Positions 674 through 22,982 of a stretch of 27,830 nt of DNA are shown piece after piece. A program made the position numbers and the translations under genes. Origin of the DNA: a virus; IMG/VR virus record IMGVR_UViG_3300010883_000316, positions 1 to 27,830 of that record; one strand, given 5' to 3'. Every line of letters starts with the position of its first letter. The first letter of the stretch is position 1. The notes below the pieces were generated by a model. The model saw only the letters and a program-made list of their open reading frames with translations. It did not search any database and was not told the origin of the DNA.

Positions 674-2230
674 CTAGGGTGTCGACGCGGTGGTTGTCAC
701 GAACTCATCAAAGTTGGCACCCTGCGCCATGAGCGCGAAGTTGACGTTGATGACTTCCGCAGACTTTGTCGGTTTCAACAGGATACGACCATACGCTTCG
801 TTCTGATCTTGAAGCGCTGTCGGGTTCGTGGTCTCGTCCATGTAGACGCGGTAGTCCCGCAGTCCTCGTCCGGCCTTGATCATCCGCAGGAACGGAATGA
901 CGAGACCCTTGAAGTCATCCCACATTCTTTCGTCGTTCGGCTCGAAGACGATGTACCGCGTTGTGGTCGCGACGACCTTACGCAGATACAGCAACATGCG
1001 ACGAACATTGATGCGGTCGAGTGCTGTCGGGGCGCGTTGCAACGTCCTCTGCCCCCAGATAGCCGTGCCTTCACCGATGAAGCCCATGATGGGGTTGACG
1101 GCGTTGACGCCATTCGCCCCCGCACGCCCGCCGTACATATAAGCACCCTCGCCGTCCGAAGGGACGACTTCCGTTTGAAGCACTTGAGGCAGACGACCAC
1201 GGCGGAAGCCTGCGGGTGCGAACCACGTCTCGAACTGACGATCCGTGTACGCGAACTGCTGCGCGGCGAAGCCGGACGGCGGACACCACACATTCTCATT
1301 GTTGTAGGAGTCGAAGACTTGGCACCAAGGCCAGTACAACGCAGCGAAAGATGAGTTCAAAGTGGCTGTCGGGTACTTGTCAGAGCCTCCCAGCGCACCG
1401 TTGTGCCAGTCCACAACCTCTGTTGCGTTGAGGCCGAACGGAGGATCGATCAGCGCCATGCAGTCTTGTCGCCCCTCTGCGATCGAGATGAGTTCGGTGA
1501 CGATCGTTTTGTCATCCTGTCCCGGAGCCGCGATCGTGTTGACGTCGATGACCTTTGGGTCGCGGAACAACTTCAGTCCCGTTTTGACGGCACCCACGAT
1601 GGTTCCGACGTAGTCTGAGGCGGACACACCAACGCCGTCATCACCCCCGGAGAAGTTCACCCCGGATTCGAGTTTCAGATCGGTCTGGGCGACCGTCACG
1701 ACCGCCGTGGCGTAGTCGGACGAAGCCAGCCGGGTTTCGACGAAGTCATCACTGTCGGACGGATTGAGGACCAAGTTGGTATGTTCCTCAACGAGGTAAC
1801 CATTCCAGCGGAATCGGATCGTGAAGGTGCCAGCGATATCACCCGCCACAACCTCAACTCCCAAACCACCTGCCCCGTTCGCCCAGCCACCACTGCTACT
1901 TGCGGTGAGGGTGATAGCCGTCGCGTTGTCAGCGGCGTTTTGCAGGGTTCGTGTGGCTGTTGCTTCATCGTAACCGGCGACCCGGACAACCCAAAGTTGG
2001 TTGCCCTGCCGGAGGTACTGCTGTGCAGCCAAGATGCCCTTGTATTGGGTTCCGGGGAACCCAAAGATGTTCAGGAGTTGCTCCTCTGTCGTGACGAACG
2101 TCAACTCGTCAACCGGGCCTTTGCTGGCGGTTGTGACGATACCGAAGACCATCGTCGTCAGACGGGGAACGTAGAGAGAAAAATCCTGCTCCTGAGTGTA
2201 AACGCCGGGAAATGTGAAGGCACCAGCCAT
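674..2230 (-). CDS. contractile tail sheath protein
   Basis: This 518-residue protein is the tail sheath, which polymerises around the tube and contracts on infection. Typical features are an N-terminal FPGVYTQEQDFS segment, the following hydrophobic strand TTMVFGIVTTASKGPVDE, and a conserved C-terminal sheath domain with VATTTRYIVFEPNDERMWDDF, PFLRMIKAGRGLRDYRVYMDE and a final strand VINVNFALMAQGANFDEFV. A variable insert at about residues 130-210 separates the two conserved parts, as in other sheaths. The ATG at 2230 is preceded by AAAGGAACTTGAAC. An upstream in-frame TTG at 2236 is less likely. It sits between a tail-terminator-like gene and the tube gene. Confidence 0.92.
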   Translation of the reverse strand: MAGAFTFPGVYTQEQDFSLYVPRLTTMVFGIVTTASKGPVDELTFVTTEEQLLNIFGFPGTQYKGILAAQQYLRQGNQLWVVRVAGYDEATATRTLQNAADNATAITLTASSSGGWANGAGGLGVEVVAGDIAGTFTIRFRWNGYLVEEHTNLVLNPSDSDDFVETRLASSDYATAVVTVAQTDLKLESGVNFSGGDDGVGVSASDYVGTIVGAVKTGLKLFRDPKVIDVNTIAAPGQDDKTIVTELISIAEGRQDCMALIDPPFGLNATEVVDWHNGALGGSDKYPTATLNSSFAALYWPWCQVFDSYNNENVWCPPSGFAAQQFAYTDRQFETWFAPAGFRRGRLPQVLQTEVVPSDGEGAYMYGGRAGANGVNAVNPIMGFIGEGTAIWGQRTLQRAPTALDRINVRRMLLYLRKVVATTTRYIVFEPNDERMWDDFKGLVIPFLRMIKAGRGLRDYRVYMDETTNPTALQDQNEAYGRILLKPTKSAEVINVNFALMAQGANFDEFVTTTASTP

Positions 2231-2323: not shown

Positions 2324-3190
2324 TCATAATTCAACGCACGGATTGCCCTCGTTGAAGCGGGCAAGTCGGTAGTCAGTTCCGCTGTAGTCGTCTGAAAAAT
2401 CCTCAACACCGTCAACGATCTCTCCTGTCGTGGCGTCTCCACGAGACATGGGGCCGTGAAATTCCAGCAGGTTGTCTCCGTATGGGTCGTCTGGGCTGCA
2501 CAGTGAGTCGTCATCTTCGATGCTGATATCCACGGAGTGGACCAGCTTTTGCGTGATCGGCACCGGCGGCAGCCAGCCCTCAAGTCGAATGGAGAATGTC
2601 CACCGCAGTGACCGTTGCTGGTCAACAGGCTCCAGATTTGTGTTGTCTGTCATCCCCTCTAAGAACCAAGGAACGGTCTTCACGCCCATCGGGGTTCCGT
2701 GATCCACGTCCCGGTAAAGCATTCCACCCTCGTCCCACAACCCAGCAAACTGAGCAACGGCGACACGGGCTTCAAGTCGAGTTTTCGTCCACATCTCAGC
2801 GCTGTACTGAAATGTGTAAGGCAGGGGATGAGCGTGTGCGATGGCTTCCTTGTACTCGGTTGTTTCAAGGGCGACCTTGCGATACAAGATTTTTCGGTAG
2901 AGATACCGCTGAGGGTCGTAGGTGGTGTCCCCTATCTGCTGGAGCGAGATGAACGGCAGGGGGATTTTGAACTCGCGAGTGTTCGCGATATCCTTCTGGA
3001 ACTTCCTGCGCATCCTCGCCCATGCACGTTCCGGCGTTGCGAAAATGAGAGGGATGACCCTTGCGGTCGGCACGCCCTGATCGTCAACGATCTTCAGCGC
3101 GTTGAACAATCGCGCTGTCGCAGAATCGTATGTTCCGTAGTCCCATGCGTGCTTTTTGGGGGTCATTTCAATCACGGGGAAGTCAGGCAT
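2324..3190 (-). CDS. virion protein, probable tail terminator/completion protein
   Basis: This 288-residue protein lies immediately before the sheath gene, the usual place of the tail terminator (T4 gp15 position). It starts MPDFPVIEMTPKKHAWDY, carries a middle region rich in aromatic and beta-type segments (LPYTFQYSAEMWTKTRLEARV, RSLRWTFSIRLEGWLPPVPI) and ends in an acidic tail. I chose the ATG at 3190, which overlaps the end of the homing endonuclease gene by 8 bases and has GGGGGTG before it inside that gene. Its first 18 residues match the first 18 of the endonuclease at 13 positions (see findings). The function comes from position and general character only; no diagnostic motif was recognised. 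Confidence 0.75.
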   Translation of the reverse strand: MPDFPVIEMTPKKHAWDYGTYDSATARLFNALKIVDDQGVPTARVIPLIFATPERAWARMRRKFQKDIANTREFKIPLPFISLQQIGDTTYDPQRYLYRKILYRKVALETTEYKEAIAHAHPLPYTFQYSAEMWTKTRLEARVAVAQFAGLWDEGGMLYRDVDHGTPMGVKTVPWFLEGMTDNTNLEPVDQQRSLRWTFSIRLEGWLPPVPITQKLVHSVDISIEDDDSLCSPDDPYGDNLLEFHGPMSRGDATTGEIVDGVEDFSDDYSGTDYRLARFNEGNPCVEL

Positions 3191-3914
3191 GGCACACCCC
3201 CATGAAGTAGTCCTTCGAGAACTCACATTCGCGAATGCGGATCAGGGTGTATCCGAAATTGGATGCGACCTGCTCACACTCCCGGTCACGTCGGTTATTC
3301 TTCTCGATGAATTCGTTCTGTGGTCCGCCTTGGCACGCACAACCATGCCAGAAGCAGCCATCAAGTTCGACCAACCGATTCAATCCCGGCAGGAAGAAAT
3401 CGTAGGGGTGCGAAAAGCCGGGAATGTGGTACTGGTGGTGAAACTCTAAACCAGCTTCCACAAGCCACGCTGCCGCTTGCTGCTCCCACCGGGGGGTGAA
3501 GTTCGTCTGCCTCTCCCCGGCGTCCCACTGACGCTGCGTGGCGGCTCCAATCTTGGCTTTATGCTCCGCAGTAAACTTTCGCCCCTTGAGAGTTTGGCTT
3601 AGCTTTCGCCGAGATTCTTCGGACCAATGGTAGCCAGTCACTTCACGAGTTCTTTTCGTTGATGCGGCTCGTTTTGCTTTGTGTTCTTCCGATTGAACAT
3701 CGCCGGTATGAGTCTGGCGAATTGCTTCGCCGACTTCTGCACAGGCCATTGAAGCGGTGGGAAACTTTTGAGCGTATTGAGCGGTCGTCATCCCGTGTTT
3801 GCGCAGGTGCGTCCCAGTGATGACACGGAATCTCAACCCGCAAACGAAGCAGGGGACTTCGTAGTCCCACGCATGTTGCTGGGGAGTCATTGTGATCGTT
3901 GGAAAAGGCGGCAT
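3183..3914 (-). CDS. free-standing homing endonuclease, Vsr-like nuclease with N-terminal zinc finger
   Basis: This 243-residue protein is probably a mobile endonuclease that cuts unoccupied alleles. After an 18-residue leader comes a Ros/MucR-like zinc finger with C22, C25, H36 and H40 (CFVCG ... HLRKHGMT). Next is a NUMOD3-type DNA-binding repeat region at about residues 98-126 (SEESRRKLSQTLKGRKF then TAEHKAKIGAA). The nuclease part at about 170-192 holds YDFFLPG with D172 and VELDGCFWHGC with D185 and H190, as in Vsr and related homing nucleases. It starts at an ATG that overlaps the previous stop as TGATG. Its 3' end supplies the ribosome binding site and start codon of the next tail gene. 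The leader duplicates the N-terminus of that gene. Confidence 0.88.
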   Translation of the reverse strand: MPPFPTITMTPQQHAWDYEVPCFVCGLRFRVITGTHLRKHGMTTAQYAQKFPTASMACAEVGEAIRQTHTGDVQSEEHKAKRAASTKRTREVTGYHWSEESRRKLSQTLKGRKFTAEHKAKIGAATQRQWDAGERQTNFTPRWEQQAAAWLVEAGLEFHHQYHIPGFSHPYDFFLPGLNRLVELDGCFWHGCACQGGPQNEFIEKNNRRDRECEQVASNFGYTLIRIRECEFSKDYFMGVCHA

Positions 3915-6353: not shown

Positions 6354-8726
6354 TCACAAAATGATGTTTTCGTCGATTCCTTTGCCGAAGATCATATCAG
6401 GCGAGTCCGGGTCGCCAGAGTCCAAGGCAGGAGAAACTACAGTATCGAAGACCAGAGTCGGGAACTTGGCTGCGCCGACGATCATAACAGGAGAACCCCC
6501 GGCGCTGGAGAGCAAGCCGGGAGAATTAGCAACCCCGGAGACCAAAGCTGGTGAACTCGCAAGGCTGGCGACCACGACAGGAGACTGAGCAGCCGCAGAA
6601 ACTGAGGCAGGGGAGTTGGCAACACTGGCGACCAAAATCGGAGAGGTTGCGGAGCCAAGAATAGAAATCGCAGCGTTGATGGCATCGCCACTTTGCACGC
6701 CTTGGTTTATGAAGCTCATCCCCACGCTGGGGAGAATTCCACCGATGCTCACGAACAAGAAACCCACATCGGTTTCGGATGCGAGACCTAAGCTGACTTG
6801 CTTGTAAAAACTGGTCGGGAAGGTCGAGTCAACCTCTGAGGACAGAGCGATTGGAACGAACTTACCCGGAACGAATACCAGCCCGGAGTCAGTCTCCAAG
6901 GCAAGACCAATGGGGATGCGGCTCGCGAAGGGCAGACTAAAGGCTGCATCCGTCTCAGATGCTAAGCCCATCCGGGAGAGCTTGGCGTGAGCAAACAGAA
7001 ACGCGGAGTCTGTCTCTGACGCGAGGCCGGGCAGGTACACCTTCGCAGACGTCAGAGGAAATGCGACGTCTGTCTCCAATGAAAGACCCATGAGCAATCG
7101 CTTCGCGTGAGCAACCGCGAACGCGGAGTCTGTTTCTGGAGCCAACCCCATTCGGGCTTGCTTCGCGAAGATCGCCGCAAACGCTGAGTCGACTTCTGGT
7201 GCGAGGCCCAACGAAATCAAAGCGGAAAGCCCCAAGTTGATTGCTGAGTCTGTTTCAGTCGACAGCCCCAGTCGGGACAACTTCGCGTGTGACATTGAGA
7301 ACGCCGAATCAGTCTCCGACGCGAGGCCCGTTGCATACACCTTCGCAAAGGTATGGGGATGTGCTGTGTCTGTCTCCGACGCAAGGCCCATCGGGTACAG
7401 AATCGTGATGAACATGGGGTAGGCAGAGTCGGTTTCCGATGCCAACCCCATCCGGGATTGCTTCGCGTAGGCCATTGCGAACGCTGAGTCTGTTTCGGTC
7501 GCCAAGGCCGATGCGTAGACCTTCGCAACCGACAGCAGAAATGCTGAGTCGATCTCCGAAGCCAAGCTCATCGGGGACGACTTCGCAAAGGCCATCGAAA
7601 GTGCGGAGTCGATCTCGGAAGACAGCCCCAACGGTTGACGCTTCGCAAGAGACCAAGGGAATGCGGAGTCTGTTTCAGACGACAAGCCCAGTGAGTATTG
7701 CTTCGCAATAGTCCAAGGGAACGCTGAGTCTGTTTCCGAAGCTAAGCCCATCGGGGACGACTTCGCAAAAGCTGCTGCAAGAGCGGAGTCTGTTTCCGAC
7801 GAGAGGCCCATCGGGGACGACTTCGCAAAGGCCATCGGAAATGCTGAGTCTGTTTCGGACGCCAACCCCGGCGAGTAAATAATCGCAAAAGAAAACGGGA
7901 ACGCGGAGTCGGTCTCTGAAGCAGCACCCAACGCAGAAACGAGATACAGCGTCACAGAAAACGCAGAGTCGGTTTCTGAGGAGAGACCCAACGCATACAG
8001 CTTCGCAGCCGTCAGCAGGAGTGCGGAGTCTGTTTCTGTTGCAAGACCCAACGCGGAGAGCTTCGCGTAAGCCATCGCAAACGCTGAGTCGGTCTCCGAT
8101 GAAAGACCCAACGCTTGACGCTTCGCAAGAGACCAAGGGAAAGCGGAGTCCACCTCAGCGGAAAGACCCAACGCATGTTGTTGTGCAATTGACAGAGGGA
8201 ACACGGAGTCCACTTCTGAGGCCAGCCCCAGAGAAAGCACAGTTGCGAGGCCCAACAGAAACGCCTCGTCAGTTTCCGTTGCGAGGCCCATCGGAGAAGA
8301 CTTCGCAAAAGCTGCCGTGAACGCTGAGTCTGTTTCGGATGCTAAGCCCATCGGAGAGGACTTCGCAAAAGCTGCTGCGAACGCTGAGTCTGTTTCGGAT
8401 GCTAAGCCCATCGGAGAAGACTTCGCAAAAGCTGCCGTGAACGCTGAGTCTGTTTCGGACGCCAAGCCCGGCAGATAGACCTTGGCCGGAGTCCACGCGG
8501 GTGCTGAATCGGTCTCTGGGGCCAGTCCGGGATTCAGCAGCTTGGCTGGTGTGGACGCTAAGGAAGAATCCAACTCCGCCGAGAGGCCGATCGTTACTCG
8601 CTTCGCCGGGGCGAAAGACTGAGCCGAGTCCGTCTCCGAGCCGAGTCCCGGAGTAAGCGTCTCCGCGCGGCGGGTGTACGCCGTCCTCGGACCACCGTAC
8701 ATCCCAAGTCGTGAAATCTTTGCCAT
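6354..8726 (-). CDS. giant tandem-repeat protein (32 x 20-residue ETDSA repeats), probable tail appendage
   Basis: This 790-residue protein has a short leader of 25 residues (with GMYGGPRTAYTRRAE). Residues 26-665 are exactly 32 tandem 20-residue units without spacers; the consensus is x-G-L-A-S-E-T-D-S-A-F-x-x-x-x-A-K-x-x-x. A linker of 26 residues follows, then nine 10-residue units at 692-781 with a fixed SP (FP once) pair, and a short acidic end. No catalytic motif is present. The regular period suggests an extended fibre or solenoid. I have seen similar ETD repeats in phage tail genes, but no established function is known to me. The start overlaps the previous stop by one base (TGATG), so translation is coupled. 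The gene lies in the fibre-type cluster, which supports an appendage role. Confidence 0.88.
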   Translation of the reverse strand: MAKISRLGMYGGPRTAYTRRAETLTPGLGSETDSAQSFAPAKRVTIGLSAELDSSLASTPAKLLNPGLAPETDSAPAWTPAKVYLPGLASETDSAFTAAFAKSSPMGLASETDSAFAAAFAKSSPMGLASETDSAFTAAFAKSSPMGLATETDEAFLLGLATVLSLGLASEVDSVFPLSIAQQHALGLSAEVDSAFPWSLAKRQALGLSSETDSAFAMAYAKLSALGLATETDSALLLTAAKLYALGLSSETDSAFSVTLYLVSALGAASETDSAFPFSFAIIYSPGLASETDSAFPMAFAKSSPMGLSSETDSALAAAFAKSSPMGLASETDSAFPWTIAKQYSLGLSSETDSAFPWSLAKRQPLGLSSEIDSALSMAFAKSSPMSLASEIDSAFLLSVAKVYASALATETDSAFAMAYAKQSRMGLASETDSAYPMFITILYPMGLASETDTAHPHTFAKVYATGLASETDSAFSMSHAKLSRLGLSTETDSAINLGLSALISLGLAPEVDSAFAAIFAKQARMGLAPETDSAFAVAHAKRLLMGLSLETDVAFPLTSAKVYLPGLASETDSAFLFAHAKLSRMGLASETDAAFSLPFASRIPIGLALETDSGLVFVPGKFVPIALSSEVDSTFPTSFYKQVSLGLASETDVGFLFVSIGGILPSVGMSFINQGVQSGDAINAAISILGSATSPILVASVANSPASVSAAAQSPVVVASLASSPALVSGVANSPGLLSSAGGSPVMIVGAAKFPTLVFDTVVSPALDSGDPDSPDMIFGKGIDENIIL
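6384..6653 (-). repeat. nine 30-bp coding repeats (10-residue period)
   Basis: Near the 3' end of the repeat gene the protein shows nine decads with an S-P pair at a fixed place, such as SATSPILVAS, VANSPASVS and VANSPGLLS. The period is half that of the main array and the sequence is unrelated to it. The last units are more degenerate. Confidence 0.85.
6732..8651 (-). repeat. 32 tandem 60-bp repeats coding for ETDSA units
   Basis: The DNA has an exact 60-base period over 1920 bases with no indels. Units vary mostly at the variable residues and silent positions. Blocks such as 8281-8340 and 8401-8460 are nearly identical, and those at 7741-7800 and 7801-7860 are very similar, which points to recent unit duplication or gene conversion. 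Confidence 0.93.
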
Positions 8727-18296: not shown

Positions 18297-18662
18297 CTAC
18301 ACAACCGTCAGAGATTCTGTCGCAAGATCAAACGACGGAACGGGTTGGTACGCTACGACTTCAATTCTCACACCGTCGTTGATCCTCGCCCCCAGATGGA
18401 AGGCGGTGAACGCTGCGATATCTGTGATGACGGCGGGAATCATCGAAGCGCGTGCAGGAATGTTGACGAGGGAGTCAGCACCGTACTGCCGGACAAATGG
18501 CCCGGCGATATCCTGACCACCCTTGATGTGGAGTACCGCGTCCTCGTCGCTGAGGTTTTCAGCAAACACGACGAAGGCAGGCTTTCCAAACTCAAAGCGT
18601 TGGGCCACTTGTGGGTTAGCAGCGAGTTGATCTCGCAAGATGTACTCGGTTCGTCGAATCAT
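18297..18662 (-). CDS. small beta-rich virion-type protein
   Basis: This 121-residue protein begins MIRRTEYILRDQLAANPQVA. It has a strand-rich core with FVVFAENLSDEDAVLHIKGG, VNIPARASMI and a final strand VRIEVVAYQPVP. It overlaps the end of the acidic protein gene by 4 bases (ATGA). Its shape suggests a small structural or decoration protein. The IPAR segment after a strand pair resembles IPAK in the protein at 17580. No family was recognised. Confidence 0.68.
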   Translation of the reverse strand: MIRRTEYILRDQLAANPQVAQRFEFGKPAFVVFAENLSDEDAVLHIKGGQDIAGPFVRQYGADSLVNIPARASMIPAVITDIAAFTAFHLGARINDGVRIEVVAYQPVPSFDLATESLTVV

Positions 18663-20296
18663 TTTGGCTCTTCTCCTAGCAGCGAGTTTACGCTGTCAAA
18701 TAGGATTCCCGGAGTCGATTGCTCTTCGTTTTCTTCTTCCTCTTCCTCTTCATCCTCGTCGTCGTCGTCGTCGTCGTCTTCCGGGTCTTCCTCGTCGTCG
18801 TCCGGCGGGAATTCATCGTCAGGCACTTCACCGTCGTCGTCTGGCGCTGGTCCGGGCAGTTCTCCGTCGCCCGGCTCTACACCATCACCCGGTTCTTTAC
18901 CCGCGCCCGGAAGGTCGCCCGGCTCGTTTGTGTCCGGCGGAATTTCTTCACCGTCTTCAGGTGGTTCTTCCTCGCCGTCTTCTGGCTCTTCCTCGCCATC
19001 TTCAGGCTCTTCGCCACCACCGGATTTTGCAAATGGATTCTCTCCGCCCTTGCCGTCTTCCGGTTCCTCGTCGTCGCCACCAGACTTCGCGAATGGATTT
19101 TCGCCACCACCATCGCCCGGTTCTTCACCACCACCTTGAGCAGCGGCTGGTTTTTCTTCGCCGGGTTCTGGGAAGCCTGTGATGCCTTGGTCTTGCTCGT
19201 CTTCCGGGGGCGTAACACTGCCGTCAGCGGCGATGTTTACTTCGTCGCCAGAGACAAGGAATACCCAAGGCAAGGCGTGTGGATTCGTTGTGTCAAACTG
19301 GGGGGTGCTGTCGACCTGCATCCCTTGTGGCGTAGTCGGATCGACACCCGGTTCCTCTTCCTCGTCCTCTTCCTCGTCGTCTTCGTCGTCGTCGTCTTCC
19401 TCATCGCCATCTTCTGGTTCTTCCTCGTCAGAGTCGTCCCCGTCTTCGGGTTCCTCTTCCGGCGGAAACTCTTCGCCGTCTTCTGGCTCTTCCTCGCCGG
19501 GGATTTCTTCTCCGGGGATAGGCTCTTCCTCGCCGGGGATTTCTTCGCCGTCTTCAGGCTCTTCGTCTCCGTCTTCCGGCGGAAACTCTTCGCCGTCTTC
19601 AGGCTCTTCGTCTCCGTCTTCCGGCTCTTCCTCGTCGGGGATTTCTTCGTCGTCTTCTGGCTCTTCCTCGTCGTCTTCCGGCGGAGGCGGCGATGCTTCT
19701 GCCCCCGGAGCCAGCGGACCCTGCACAATCTGCGTGCCGGGCATGATCTCTTTCAACGACTGCAACAACTGTGCGGCTTGCGTCACAGGCATCATCGGAG
19801 AGAAGAAAAGCAAAAACGCGGCAAGGTCTTGTTCGATATCACTCGCAACGAAAAAGTCGAGAGCGTCAACTGCGTTCACACGCAGGATGGCTGAGTCGTA
19901 AACGTCGTCAAGGGTTGGCCCATCCTCTGGCTGCAAGTCGATAGCCCCGGATGCAAGGTCCGCCAAGCGAGGGTCCGGCAGGCCAGCGTTGGGGTCTTCT
20001 GGCGGCGCTTCCTCTTTTTCCGGCTCTTCCTCGTCGTCATCCTTTTTCTTTTTCGCGAATGGTGGAGGGGCTTCCGAAAGAAGCTGGATGGCTTCGGACA
20101 GGTCCGTGTCACCATCCAAAATGCTTTCGAGCGTGACGCCCATTGCGGACTGCGCTCTCTGCATTCGGGTTTCAAGCGCACTCTTGATGCGAACTCCCAG
20201 AGGGGAGCGCATGAACGCAGAAGCCATCTTCACCCGCTCAACGCGGTTGAATCCAGCGGTAGGGCTTCGCAAAATTGGTCCAGCATGTGCAGGCAT
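18659..20296 (-). CDS. very acidic low-complexity protein (545 residues)
   Basis: The first 100 residues are partly helical and basic (MRSPLGVRIKSALETRMQRA), ending in PPPFAKKKKDDDEEE. A folded-looking region covers about 103-190, with a hydrophobic stretch AAFLLFFSPMMPVTQAAQLL. Residues 200-315 and 375-525 are mostly Glu, Asp, Pro and Gly with repeated EEPEDGEE/EIPGEEEP units, separated by a small island near 338-366 (LPWVFLVSGDEVNIAADG). NPFAKSGG occurs twice. GAGGGAATCT precedes the chosen ATG at 20296. The gene overlaps the next by 4 bases. Possible roles are an internal head/scaffold-type protein or a DNA-mimic, but no family was recognised. The coding strand is strongly purine-rich. Confidence 0.82.
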   Translation of the reverse strand: MPAHAGPILRSPTAGFNRVERVKMASAFMRSPLGVRIKSALETRMQRAQSAMGVTLESILDGDTDLSEAIQLLSEAPPPFAKKKKDDDEEEPEKEEAPPEDPNAGLPDPRLADLASGAIDLQPEDGPTLDDVYDSAILRVNAVDALDFFVASDIEQDLAAFLLFFSPMMPVTQAAQLLQSLKEIMPGTQIVQGPLAPGAEASPPPPEDDEEEPEDDEEIPDEEEPEDGDEEPEDGEEFPPEDGDEEPEDGEEIPGEEEPIPGEEIPGEEEPEDGEEFPPEEEPEDGDDSDEEEPEDGDEEDDDDEDDEEEDEEEEPGVDPTTPQGMQVDSTPQFDTTNPHALPWVFLVSGDEVNIAADGSVTPPEDEQDQGITGFPEPGEEKPAAAQGGGEEPGDGGGENPFAKSGGDDEEPEDGKGGENPFAKSGGGEEPEDGEEEPEDGEEEPPEDGEEIPPDTNEPGDLPGAGKEPGDGVEPGDGELPGPAPDDDGEVPDDEFPPDDDEEDPEDDDDDDDEDEEEEEEENEEQSTPGILFDSVNSLLGEEPK

Positions 20297-20385
20297 AGAT
20301 TCCCTCACCCCTTATGACGGTTTCAGCGGGGGAATTCACTTCGCGGGCTGGAAGGCAAATCCCTAAAACATTTGCTGCACTGTGG

Positions 20386-21156: not shown

Positions 21157-21834
21157 TCACTCGCTCCCGTTCGATGATCTCGACGGCCAGAATTGAGGCA
21201 AGTCCAAGGGGGTCAACCCTGCTTCTTTCCGCGTGAGGTTGAGAACTATAAGCGATTGTTGGTGGAGTAGATTATTCTCCACTTGCGCCGAACGAAGTTG
21301 CTCTCCCAAACCCCGGAAGTGTTCTGTTGTCCGAACTTCGAGTTCCGCGATTTTCTTCTCTACGGAGTGGGGGTGGCCGTTAGCCATGTGTTCCTTGAAA
21401 CTCTCTTTGAGGGGACCAAGAGACATGGAACCCAGAAGAGCCATGAGCGTGATAGTCACGCCTGCAAAACCTATGAACGCAGCACCTGCCGTCACGATCA
21501 GCGGCCAGTTTACGGCTCGCGATTCAGAAAACTTTGAGCCGAGTACGTTAAGGTCTTTGCGTGTCTCCGAGCCTTGCTCATGAATTGCAGCCCGAAGAAC
21601 CTCGCCTTGCTCCCGAATCGCATTCCACTGAGAGTCTGCGGTGGACTGCAAGGTGTCTGAGAGTGATTGAATAGAGCTTGTTAGATTTGAGATATCTCGA
21701 TCGTGAGACGCAACTTTGGCTTCCAAAGTTGCACTAGACGCTCCGTTATCGCTACCTGAAGGCATATTTGGGGGTGCATCCTTACTGGGGTTTGTTTGTT
21801 GAGTGCGTTTACGCGCGACTTGCTTATCGGCCAT
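21157..21834 (-). CDS. membrane-anchored coiled-coil protein
   Basis: This 225-residue protein has a polar N-terminus, a long predicted coiled coil at about residues 35-105 (heptad-like DISNLTSSIQSLSDTLQS), one clear membrane segment at about 111-135 (PLIVTAGAAFIGFAGVTITL) and a second helical region at 155-200 with SVEKKIAELEVRTTEHFRGL. It has no signal peptide. Such single-pass coiled-coil proteins occur beside lysis genes or as membrane-associated phage proteins. A holin or spanin role is possible but unproven. It overlaps the nuclease gene by 11 bases, in a different frame, with only a weak ribosome binding site. Confidence 0.72.
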   Translation of the reverse strand: MADKQVARKRTQQTNPSKDAPPNMPSGSDNGASSATLEAKVASHDRDISNLTSSIQSLSDTLQSTADSQWNAIREQGEVLRAAIHEQGSETRKDLNVLGSKFSESRAVNWPLIVTAGAAFIGFAGVTITLMALLGSMSLGPLKESFKEHMANGHPHSVEKKIAELEVRTTEHFRGLGEQLRSAQVENNLLHQQSLIVLNLTRKEAGLTPLDLPQFWPSRSSNGSE

Positions 21835-22309
21835 TTTTTGTCTTCGTCGCGTGACCTTTCCTGACCATCGTTTCCGAGAGCGTTACCTCTCCCCCATCCA
21901 GCCAAACATGCCCCAAGGCGCGTCCAAAAGAAAATGAATTCCCCACTTTTTTACCCGGTTCCACCGGGACGAAAACCTTCACTTGGCGATTATCCGCCAA
22001 GTCCTCAAGAAACCTCTTAGCGGCTAAGCCTTTTGCTTTTTCTGCGAGGTCTCTGGTTCTGGTCTCAGGTGACCAGCAATCGAGAAGACGAATCCTCACG
22101 ACACGAGACACTCTAACATCGATTGTGTCTCCATCTACGACCCGGACGACTTCAGCAGGAAACGTCAACCCGTAAGGTGGGGCGACGACAGCAGACGGCG
22201 CGATGGCCTCTCCTGCATTAACGAAATACGCGCTGCAAAGTGCTATGGCAGCAATGAGGGCCAGTCTACTCAGTCGCGTCATTGCCCTTTGGGTGTAGTC
22301 CGAGTTCAT
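21824..22309 (-). CDS. secreted staphylococcal-nuclease-like protein
   Basis: This 161-residue protein has a signal peptide (LSRLALIAAIALCSAYFVNA) and a thermonuclease-type (SNase) OB-fold domain, a family that cleaves DNA or RNA with Ca2+. The motifs VVRVVDGDTIDV, IRLLDCWSPE with R74 and E82, and SFGRALGHVW with R130 match the catalytic Arg, Glu and Arg. The aspartate sits at D77, two residues earlier than in the S. aureus enzyme, so metal binding may differ. The ATG at 22309 has AAGGACACTTATT before it. Export suggests degradation of host or competing DNA in the periplasm, or after lysis. Its 5' end overlaps the preceding gene by 44 bases. Confidence 0.85.
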   Translation of the reverse strand: MNSDYTQRAMTRLSRLALIAAIALCSAYFVNAGEAIAPSAVVAPPYGLTFPAEVVRVVDGDTIDVRVSRVVRIRLLDCWSPETRTRDLAEKAKGLAAKRFLEDLADNRQVKVFVPVEPGKKVGNSFSFGRALGHVWLDGGEVTLSETMVRKGHATKTKNGR

Positions 22310-22982
22310 AATAAGTGTCCTTGTCGTTGGGGGTGGGCGTGATAACCGAGGGTGGTTTGTCACCGAACATCGCATTGTAAGCCAATGGAATTCCGATCGC
22401 GGCTCCCCCACCGCTGCCAAGCAAAGCTGCTGCGACCCCGACTTTCGCAAGTTTCCCCAGCCCGGCTACGCCTGCCTTCACAATGTTTGGTGGCTGGTTG
22501 ATAGGCGAAGGAACAATGACGTTAGGCGGAGCCGGGTTATCAGGGCGAGGCTGCTCTATGCTGATATTGCCGACGTTTATCATGTCACCTAAATCCGCCA
22601 AGATACCCGAAGGTGTGTTTGCGACAGCGACGGCTCCCGGAGTCTCAGTCAAGGCCGACCCCCCATTCATAATGTCTTTGTGGTTGGGGTTATCGCGAGC
22701 TTCTACGAGAACTTTTTGGGCGTCCTGCAACATCATAGCTTCGTGACCAAGCCTGATGCCAGACAGCTTGTTCATGTGGTTCTCGACCAAGTCATCCATC
22801 TTGCCAGCGTGTTCGACCTGCAAGCTACCCATACCCTTCCGGTAGTCGTTCTGCATCCCCTTGACTTTATCAACCACGTCCGTGAACGGTTGATCGATCG
22901 TCGCCGGTCCCGTCGTCGCTGCGGGGTTGTCGCTCAGTGGTTCCGCTGTCGTCGCTCCCCTCGCCGTCGTTTGTGTCATCAT
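22266..22982 (-). CDS. protein with one glycine/alanine-rich hydrophobic segment, unknown function
   Basis: The start is set at the ATG pair at 22982/22979, preceded by GGGGAAGGGGAAACCG. The protein has about 238 residues: a polar N-terminus, a helical region (VVDKVKGMQNDYRKGMGSLQ), a flexible Pro/Asn-rich stretch and a C-terminal hydrophobic segment (KVGVAAALLGSGGGAAIGIP) that could insert in a membrane. It overlaps the end of the preceding small gene by 113 bases in another frame and overlaps the start of the nuclease gene. A membrane-active or virion pore role is possible, but there is no direct evidence. Confidence 0.7.
   Translation of the reverse strand: MMTQTTARGATTAEPLSDNPAATTGPATIDQPFTDVVDKVKGMQNDYRKGMGSLQVEHAGKMDDLVENHMNKLSGIRLGHEAMMLQDAQKVLVEARDNPNHKDIMNGGSALTETPGAVAVANTPSGILADLGDMINVGNISIEQPRPDNPAPPNVIVPSPINQPPNIVKAGVAGLGKLAKVGVAAALLGSGGGAAIGIPLAYNAMFGDKPPSVITPTPNDKDTYYELGLHPKGNDATE

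Follow-up and report, generated by a model that had tools for sequence, protein, structure and literature searches.

A phage homing endonuclease whose N-terminal leader matches the start of the adjoining gp15-like tail terminator

In a 27,830-nucleotide stretch of an uncultured phage (positions 1 to 27,830 of IMG/VR record IMGVR_UViG_3300010883_000316, hereafter the window), a free-standing homing endonuclease gene (HEG) stands between a gp14-like neck gene and a gp15-like tail terminator gene, and the first 18 residues of the nuclease closely resemble the first 18 of the gp15-like protein. With a confidence only slightly above even, we favour an origin in which the HEG inserted at the gp15 start and brought a foreign gp15 start along, while the native start was taken over by the nuclease. 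By such a route an essential virion gene could survive having a selfish nuclease gene lodged on its first codons: its native start passes to the nuclease, and it is itself expressed from a start located within the nuclease gene.

The genes follow each other on the minus strand in the order gp14-like, nuclease, gp15-like and tail sheath (Table 1), and the window gp14-like protein can be aligned with gp14 homologues encoded upstream of gp15 in loci L114-L116, L194 and L195. The gp14 stop and the HEG ATG overlap by one base in TGATG (3916-3912), an overlap already pointed out in a preliminary description of this DNA. That description also took the ribosome-binding site and ATG of the tail gene to be supplied by the 3′ end of the HEG, and the sequence agrees: the gp15 ATG lies in an 8-nt overlap with the HEG, and a GGGGG run is the candidate ribosome-binding site. 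RNA structure was significant neither at the HEG start nor at the gp15 start (z 0.0 and -0.84, respectively).

Table 1. Features of the gp14-HEG-gp15 locus in window coordinates.
Feature	Position	Strand	Basis or remark
gp14-like neck / tail completion gene, 169 aa	3914..4423	-	phrog_222 4.5e-6
Free-standing HEG, 243 aa	3183..3914	-	MucR-type zinc finger + NUMOD3 + Vsr/EDxHD-like nuclease
HEG leader, codons 1-18, MPPFPTITMTPQQHAWDY	3861..3914	-	matches gp15 start; proposed stranded native gp15 start
HEG MucR-type zinc finger, residues 19-52	3759..3860	-	Pfam ROS_MUCR, residues 10-52
HEG NUMOD3 motif, residues 94-112	3579..3635	-	PF07460
HEG Vsr/EDxHD-like nuclease domain, residues 144-235	3210..3485	-	domain searches, alignment, AF2 model
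GGGGG, candidate gp15 ribosome-binding site, within HEG 3′ coding sequence	3197..3201	-	sequence and inference; 6 nt ahead of gp15 ATG
8-nt HEG/gp15 overlap ATGCCTGA = gp15 ATG + codons 2-3	3183..3190	-	sequence; HEG stop TGA within gp15 codons 2-3
gp15-like tail terminator / tail sheath stabiliser, 288 aa	2324..3190	-	PF16724, phrog_227 2.2e-8, T4 gp15 fold match
gp15 leader, codons 1-18, MPDFPVIEMTPKKHAWDY	3137..3190	-	proposed foreign copy that came with the HEG; low-confidence arm ahead of helix 1
Tail sheath protein, next gene after gp15	674..2230	-	phrog_23 5e-84

The gene downstream of the HEG, at first described simply as a tail gene, does encode a tail protein and can be named more sharply as a T4 gp15 tail terminator / sheath stabiliser. 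It matches PF16724 (T4 gp15 tail terminator) at 1.6e-10 and 41 bits against a cut-off of 25, and Foldseek pairs it with T4 gp15 (5e-9) and with the T4 neck complex (8e-11). Family score, fold and the gp14-gp15-sheath gene order all agree with T4 gp15.

The nuclease sequence is that of a free-standing homing endonuclease of the EDxHD/Vsr-like type, with putative cleavage and homing. ROS_MUCR scores 25.0 bits on its residues 10-52, just under the cut-off of 25.4, and NUMOD3 scores 20.6 bits, over the cut-off of 20.4. E144, D172, D185, H190 and D210 are conserved in a 20-sequence alignment and pLDDT is mostly around 90 over the nuclease domain in the AF2 model. The protein is predicted to be an active nuclease. 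As a Vsr mismatch endonuclease (PF03852) it reaches 18.9 bits against a cut-off of 27, and it is classed as Vsr-like and not assigned to Vsr. A phmmer search against the PDB gave no matches, a plasmid search gave one Vsr-type match, and codon usage distinguishes neither the HEG nor its leader from the rest of the genome. With members of the EDxHD (Vsr-like) family of homing endonucleases, so named in PMC6083498, the window HEG has in common a Vsr-like core in which the catalytic residues are kept, and it differs from them in being free-standing and in its N-terminal MucR-type finger and presumed captured leader.

The HEG product begins MPPFPTITMTPQQHAWDY and continues EVPCFVCG, and the gp15-like protein begins MPDFPVIEMTPKKHAWDY and continues GTYDSA. 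We thus recover the 13 identities in 18 residues that had been described, together with their abrupt end at the zinc finger (1/12 beyond). The chance of at least 12 identities at the 17 positions after the start Met is 1.8e-11, random pairs, 300,000 in all, reached 9/18 at best, and in tblastn with the gp15 protein against its own contig the HEG start is matched at E = 5.6e-5. The comparison was extended to ~1.1 million pairs of starts lying no more than 3 kb apart in 246 sequences. At 13/18 or better, only the window pair was seen to join two unrelated proteins; the others inspected at this level were duplicated genes, tail-tube-like paralogues and repeat arrays (mostly L160, antisense), labels that come from inspecting the list and not from a systematic classification. 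Convergence or a chance likeness of two short N-termini could appeal to a match of just 18 residues and to the tail-tube-like paralogues of L139, L143, L129 and L067, which also share conserved N-termini, but given the probability above and the singularity of this pair we consider it highly improbable. The match is bounded by the zinc finger on the HEG side and by helix 1 (residues 18-29) of gp15. AlphaFold pLDDT is below 50 at gp15 residues 1-14 and HEG residues 1-17, so in the models both leaders look like flexible arms and the shared piece ends where helix 1 or the finger begins.

This similarity exists only at the protein level. The DNA of the leaders is no closer than that of two independent codings: 36 of 54 nucleotides are identical (37.0 ± 1.8 expected if codons were chosen independently), as are 3 of 10 informative synonymous codons (4.3 expected), and there are no long DNA repeats between the two copies. 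The synonymous codons rule out a recent duplication of the leader, and duplication in situ followed by neutral drift of the HEG copy is rejected in simulation, where both observed values arose together with P ≤ 0.0025 at every rate tried. From randomised synonymous sites and the rejection of neutral duplication in place it follows that the copies descend from the gp15 starts of two phages and diverged there, or that both were selected; as far as 18 codons, a small sample, can carry the argument, divergence as gp15 starts in different phages appears most likely. This rejection of a newly made duplicate whose HEG copy drifts freely in place agrees with the diverged flanking copy proposed in the preliminary description.

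Selection on both copies is the core of an alternative in which the gp15 start underwent partial tandem duplication within the lineage, with the HEG between the copies and the peptide selected in both proteins, the leader serving the nuclease in stability, binding of a shared partner or delivery. Identity at codon positions 1, 2 and 3 (13, 15 and 8 of 18) does follow the pattern of protein-level constraint, and the simulation does reject a neutral HEG copy, but such a leader occurs in no related HEG, the HEG model assigns it no confident structure and no partner is known; we regard this reading as rather improbable. We would speculate, at still longer odds, that a captured gp15 arm was kept on the nuclease by selection, e.g. 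by binding a neck or tail partner and so stabilising the nuclease or carrying it in the virion. If true, the selfish nuclease would carry, as its address, a tag borrowed from a structural protein.

Distant relatives that lack the HEG show the gp14 and gp15 genes abutting or overlapping, through ATGA in L114, L209, L211, L221, L223 and L226, through TAATG in L116 and with the same zero gap in L206 and L230, so the TGATG between gp14 and the HEG in the window looks like the former gp14/gp15 junction. Intact alleles had been expected to show this tight junction together with a single gp15 start carrying the leader. The first part stands in these distant relatives; the second finds no direct support, as the MTPxxHAWDY leader is absent from all relatives with a complete gp15 start (gp15 22-29% identical), in a family whose gp15 N-terminal extension is variable. 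The exact leader pattern has 0 matches in viral_contigs, and other genuine zinc-finger HEGs, which start a few to a few tens of residues from the finger, show no copying of a neighbour's start (best 7/18). The objection anticipated beforehand, that the leader belongs to many unrelated homing nucleases, therefore finds no backing in either set.

At the gp14/gp15 junction no HEG was recognised in any of the examined relatives, which are all distant, nor in ten loci with extra genes between gp14 and gp15, whose inspected ORFs resemble other phage genes. Neither a close HEG-less allele nor a donor allele came up when viral_contigs was scanned with gp15, sheath and gp14 and genome_contigs was scanned once. 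The gp15 single-protein scan found no relatives, a two-sequence scan with the gp15 C-terminus returned the contig of L061 alone, and the nearest contigs (L061 and L062) are cut off: L061, the nearest sheath match (74%), ends before the gp15 start and retains only the last 65 gp15 residues.

Insertion with a foreign start would have proceeded as follows. Before it, gp14 and gp15 would have abutted through the overlapping stop/start TGATG. The HEG would have entered with flanking DNA of another phage, including a diverged gp15 start, at a point that we infer to lie after codon 18. The resident start and its 18-codon N-terminal arm would have been left attached to gp14 and joined in frame to the zinc finger, the HEG now using this old, gp14-coupled start, and the gp15 body would have been joined to the foreign start, with its ATG and putative ribosome-binding site within the last HEG codons. 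We count against this sequence of events the lack of a close HEG-less or donor allele in the scans above, the variable gp15 extension with the leader in no relative, and the SPO1L5 HEG (below), which did not keep the host-gene start and leaves that half of the proposal without precedent here.

The main rival, which we think unlikely, treats the gp15 start as native and has a HEG cassette, already bearing a foreign gp15 leader from an earlier host, insert cleanly between gp14 and the gp15 ATG. It explains the divergence of the leaders equally well. The HEG boundary lies exactly at the gp15 ATG, with gp15 codons 2-3 giving the HEG stop, and the codon-usage score of the gp15 leader is slightly more typical than that of the HEG leader (-0.92 vs -1.08; 18-codon windows -1.04 ± 0.13), a difference that is not significant. 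Such a cassette requires, however, an earlier identical capture elsewhere and a coincidental TGATG junction with gp14.

An allele-level case of a host-gene start rebuilt inside a selfish gene, as the preliminary description envisaged, is found in Bacillus phages SPO1L5 and Goe9, where a zinc-finger-NUMOD3-Vsr HEG directly precedes the terminase large subunit gene (L246). A DNA search with this nuclease returned only the records of these two phages, and the terminase start is matched by 33. Compared with HEG-less SPO1L3, the DNA upstream of the SPO1L5 HEG is 100% identical, and the terminase ribosome-binding site, ATG and first codons have been replaced by the HEG (MTKYTKEQ to MKFTKEQ), with the new ATG inside the HEG 3′ end in a 14-nt overlap. 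The first ~150 nt after the HEG are 92-98% identical to SPO1 vs 84-86% to SPO1L3, and beyond this stretch the terminase identity to SPO1L3 is 99-100%. A HEG of this architecture can thus come with both a rebuilt host-gene start and a 5′ tract of foreign origin. The likeness to the window covers the domain order, a place at the beginning of an essential late gene, the start codon and ribosome-binding site rebuilt in the HEG 3′ end (the latter a candidate in the window) and the host-gene 5′ stretch that came with the HEG, of ~150 nt there and a proposed foreign start here. Unlike the window HEG, that of SPO1L5/Goe9 has no host-gene leader at its own N-terminus and is uncoupled from the upstream gene, and its empty allele is known. 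The window and the SPO1L5/SPO1L3 pair suggest that phage HEGs of this architecture can swap the 5′ ends of essential genes for foreign ones, which would be a route to chimeric structural proteins.

Fungal mitochondrial mobile ORFs (mORFs) carry foreign gene ends in a similar manner, in Allomyces atp6 and in Glomus sp. atp6, atp9, cox2 and nad3 (PMC3630166). There, as in the window, an endonuclease gene is flanked by duplicate terminal pieces of an essential gene, and the copies, one native and one foreign in the fungal case and proposed to be so in the window, are alike in protein and diverged in DNA (91% and 63.5%, respectively, for atp6; PMC3630166), the same signature as that of the leaders flanking the window HEG. 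The mORFs differ in being C-terminal, mitochondrial and of the LAGLIDADG or GIY-YIG type, and empty alleles of close relatives are known for them (PMC3630166). The window would extend this C-terminal case to phages and to N-termini. Among phage genes, T4 mobE is likewise a free-standing HEG, with an ATG that overlaps the stop of the gene before it (UAAUGA), but mobE belongs to the HNH family and either splits its host gene, as in Aeh1 nrdA, or sits between genes, as in T4; no duplicated host-gene start is reported for either in the portion of PMC2988022 drawn on here. A literature search turned up no account of a phage HEG capturing an N-terminus, and leader capture by the nuclease itself is seen only in the window among the cases compared here.

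Several other features were noted. The T4-like HEG of phage ELT4 (L248, 2222-2917) has a stop that overlaps the head completion gene start (TAATG) and shows no leader copying. SPO1L5 (L246) at 2483-3500 presents an apparent co-conversion tract against L283 and L284, with donor-like and recipient-like alleles both sequenced. Adjacent tail-tube-like gene pairs in L139 (10391/11042), L143 (12307/12889), L129 (2636/3207) and L067 (7316/8039) have a strongly conserved N-terminal leader and differ over the next 40 residues. Elsewhere on the minus strand of the window are a nuclease gene with an SNase-like stretch (21824-22450; phrog_452 endonuclease, 5.7e-22), a gene for an extremely acidic 549-aa protein with many EEPEDGEE repeats (18659-20308), and one for a 790-aa protein that consists largely of a repeated GLASETDSAF-like unit (6354-8726; phrog_14065, 6.9e-37).
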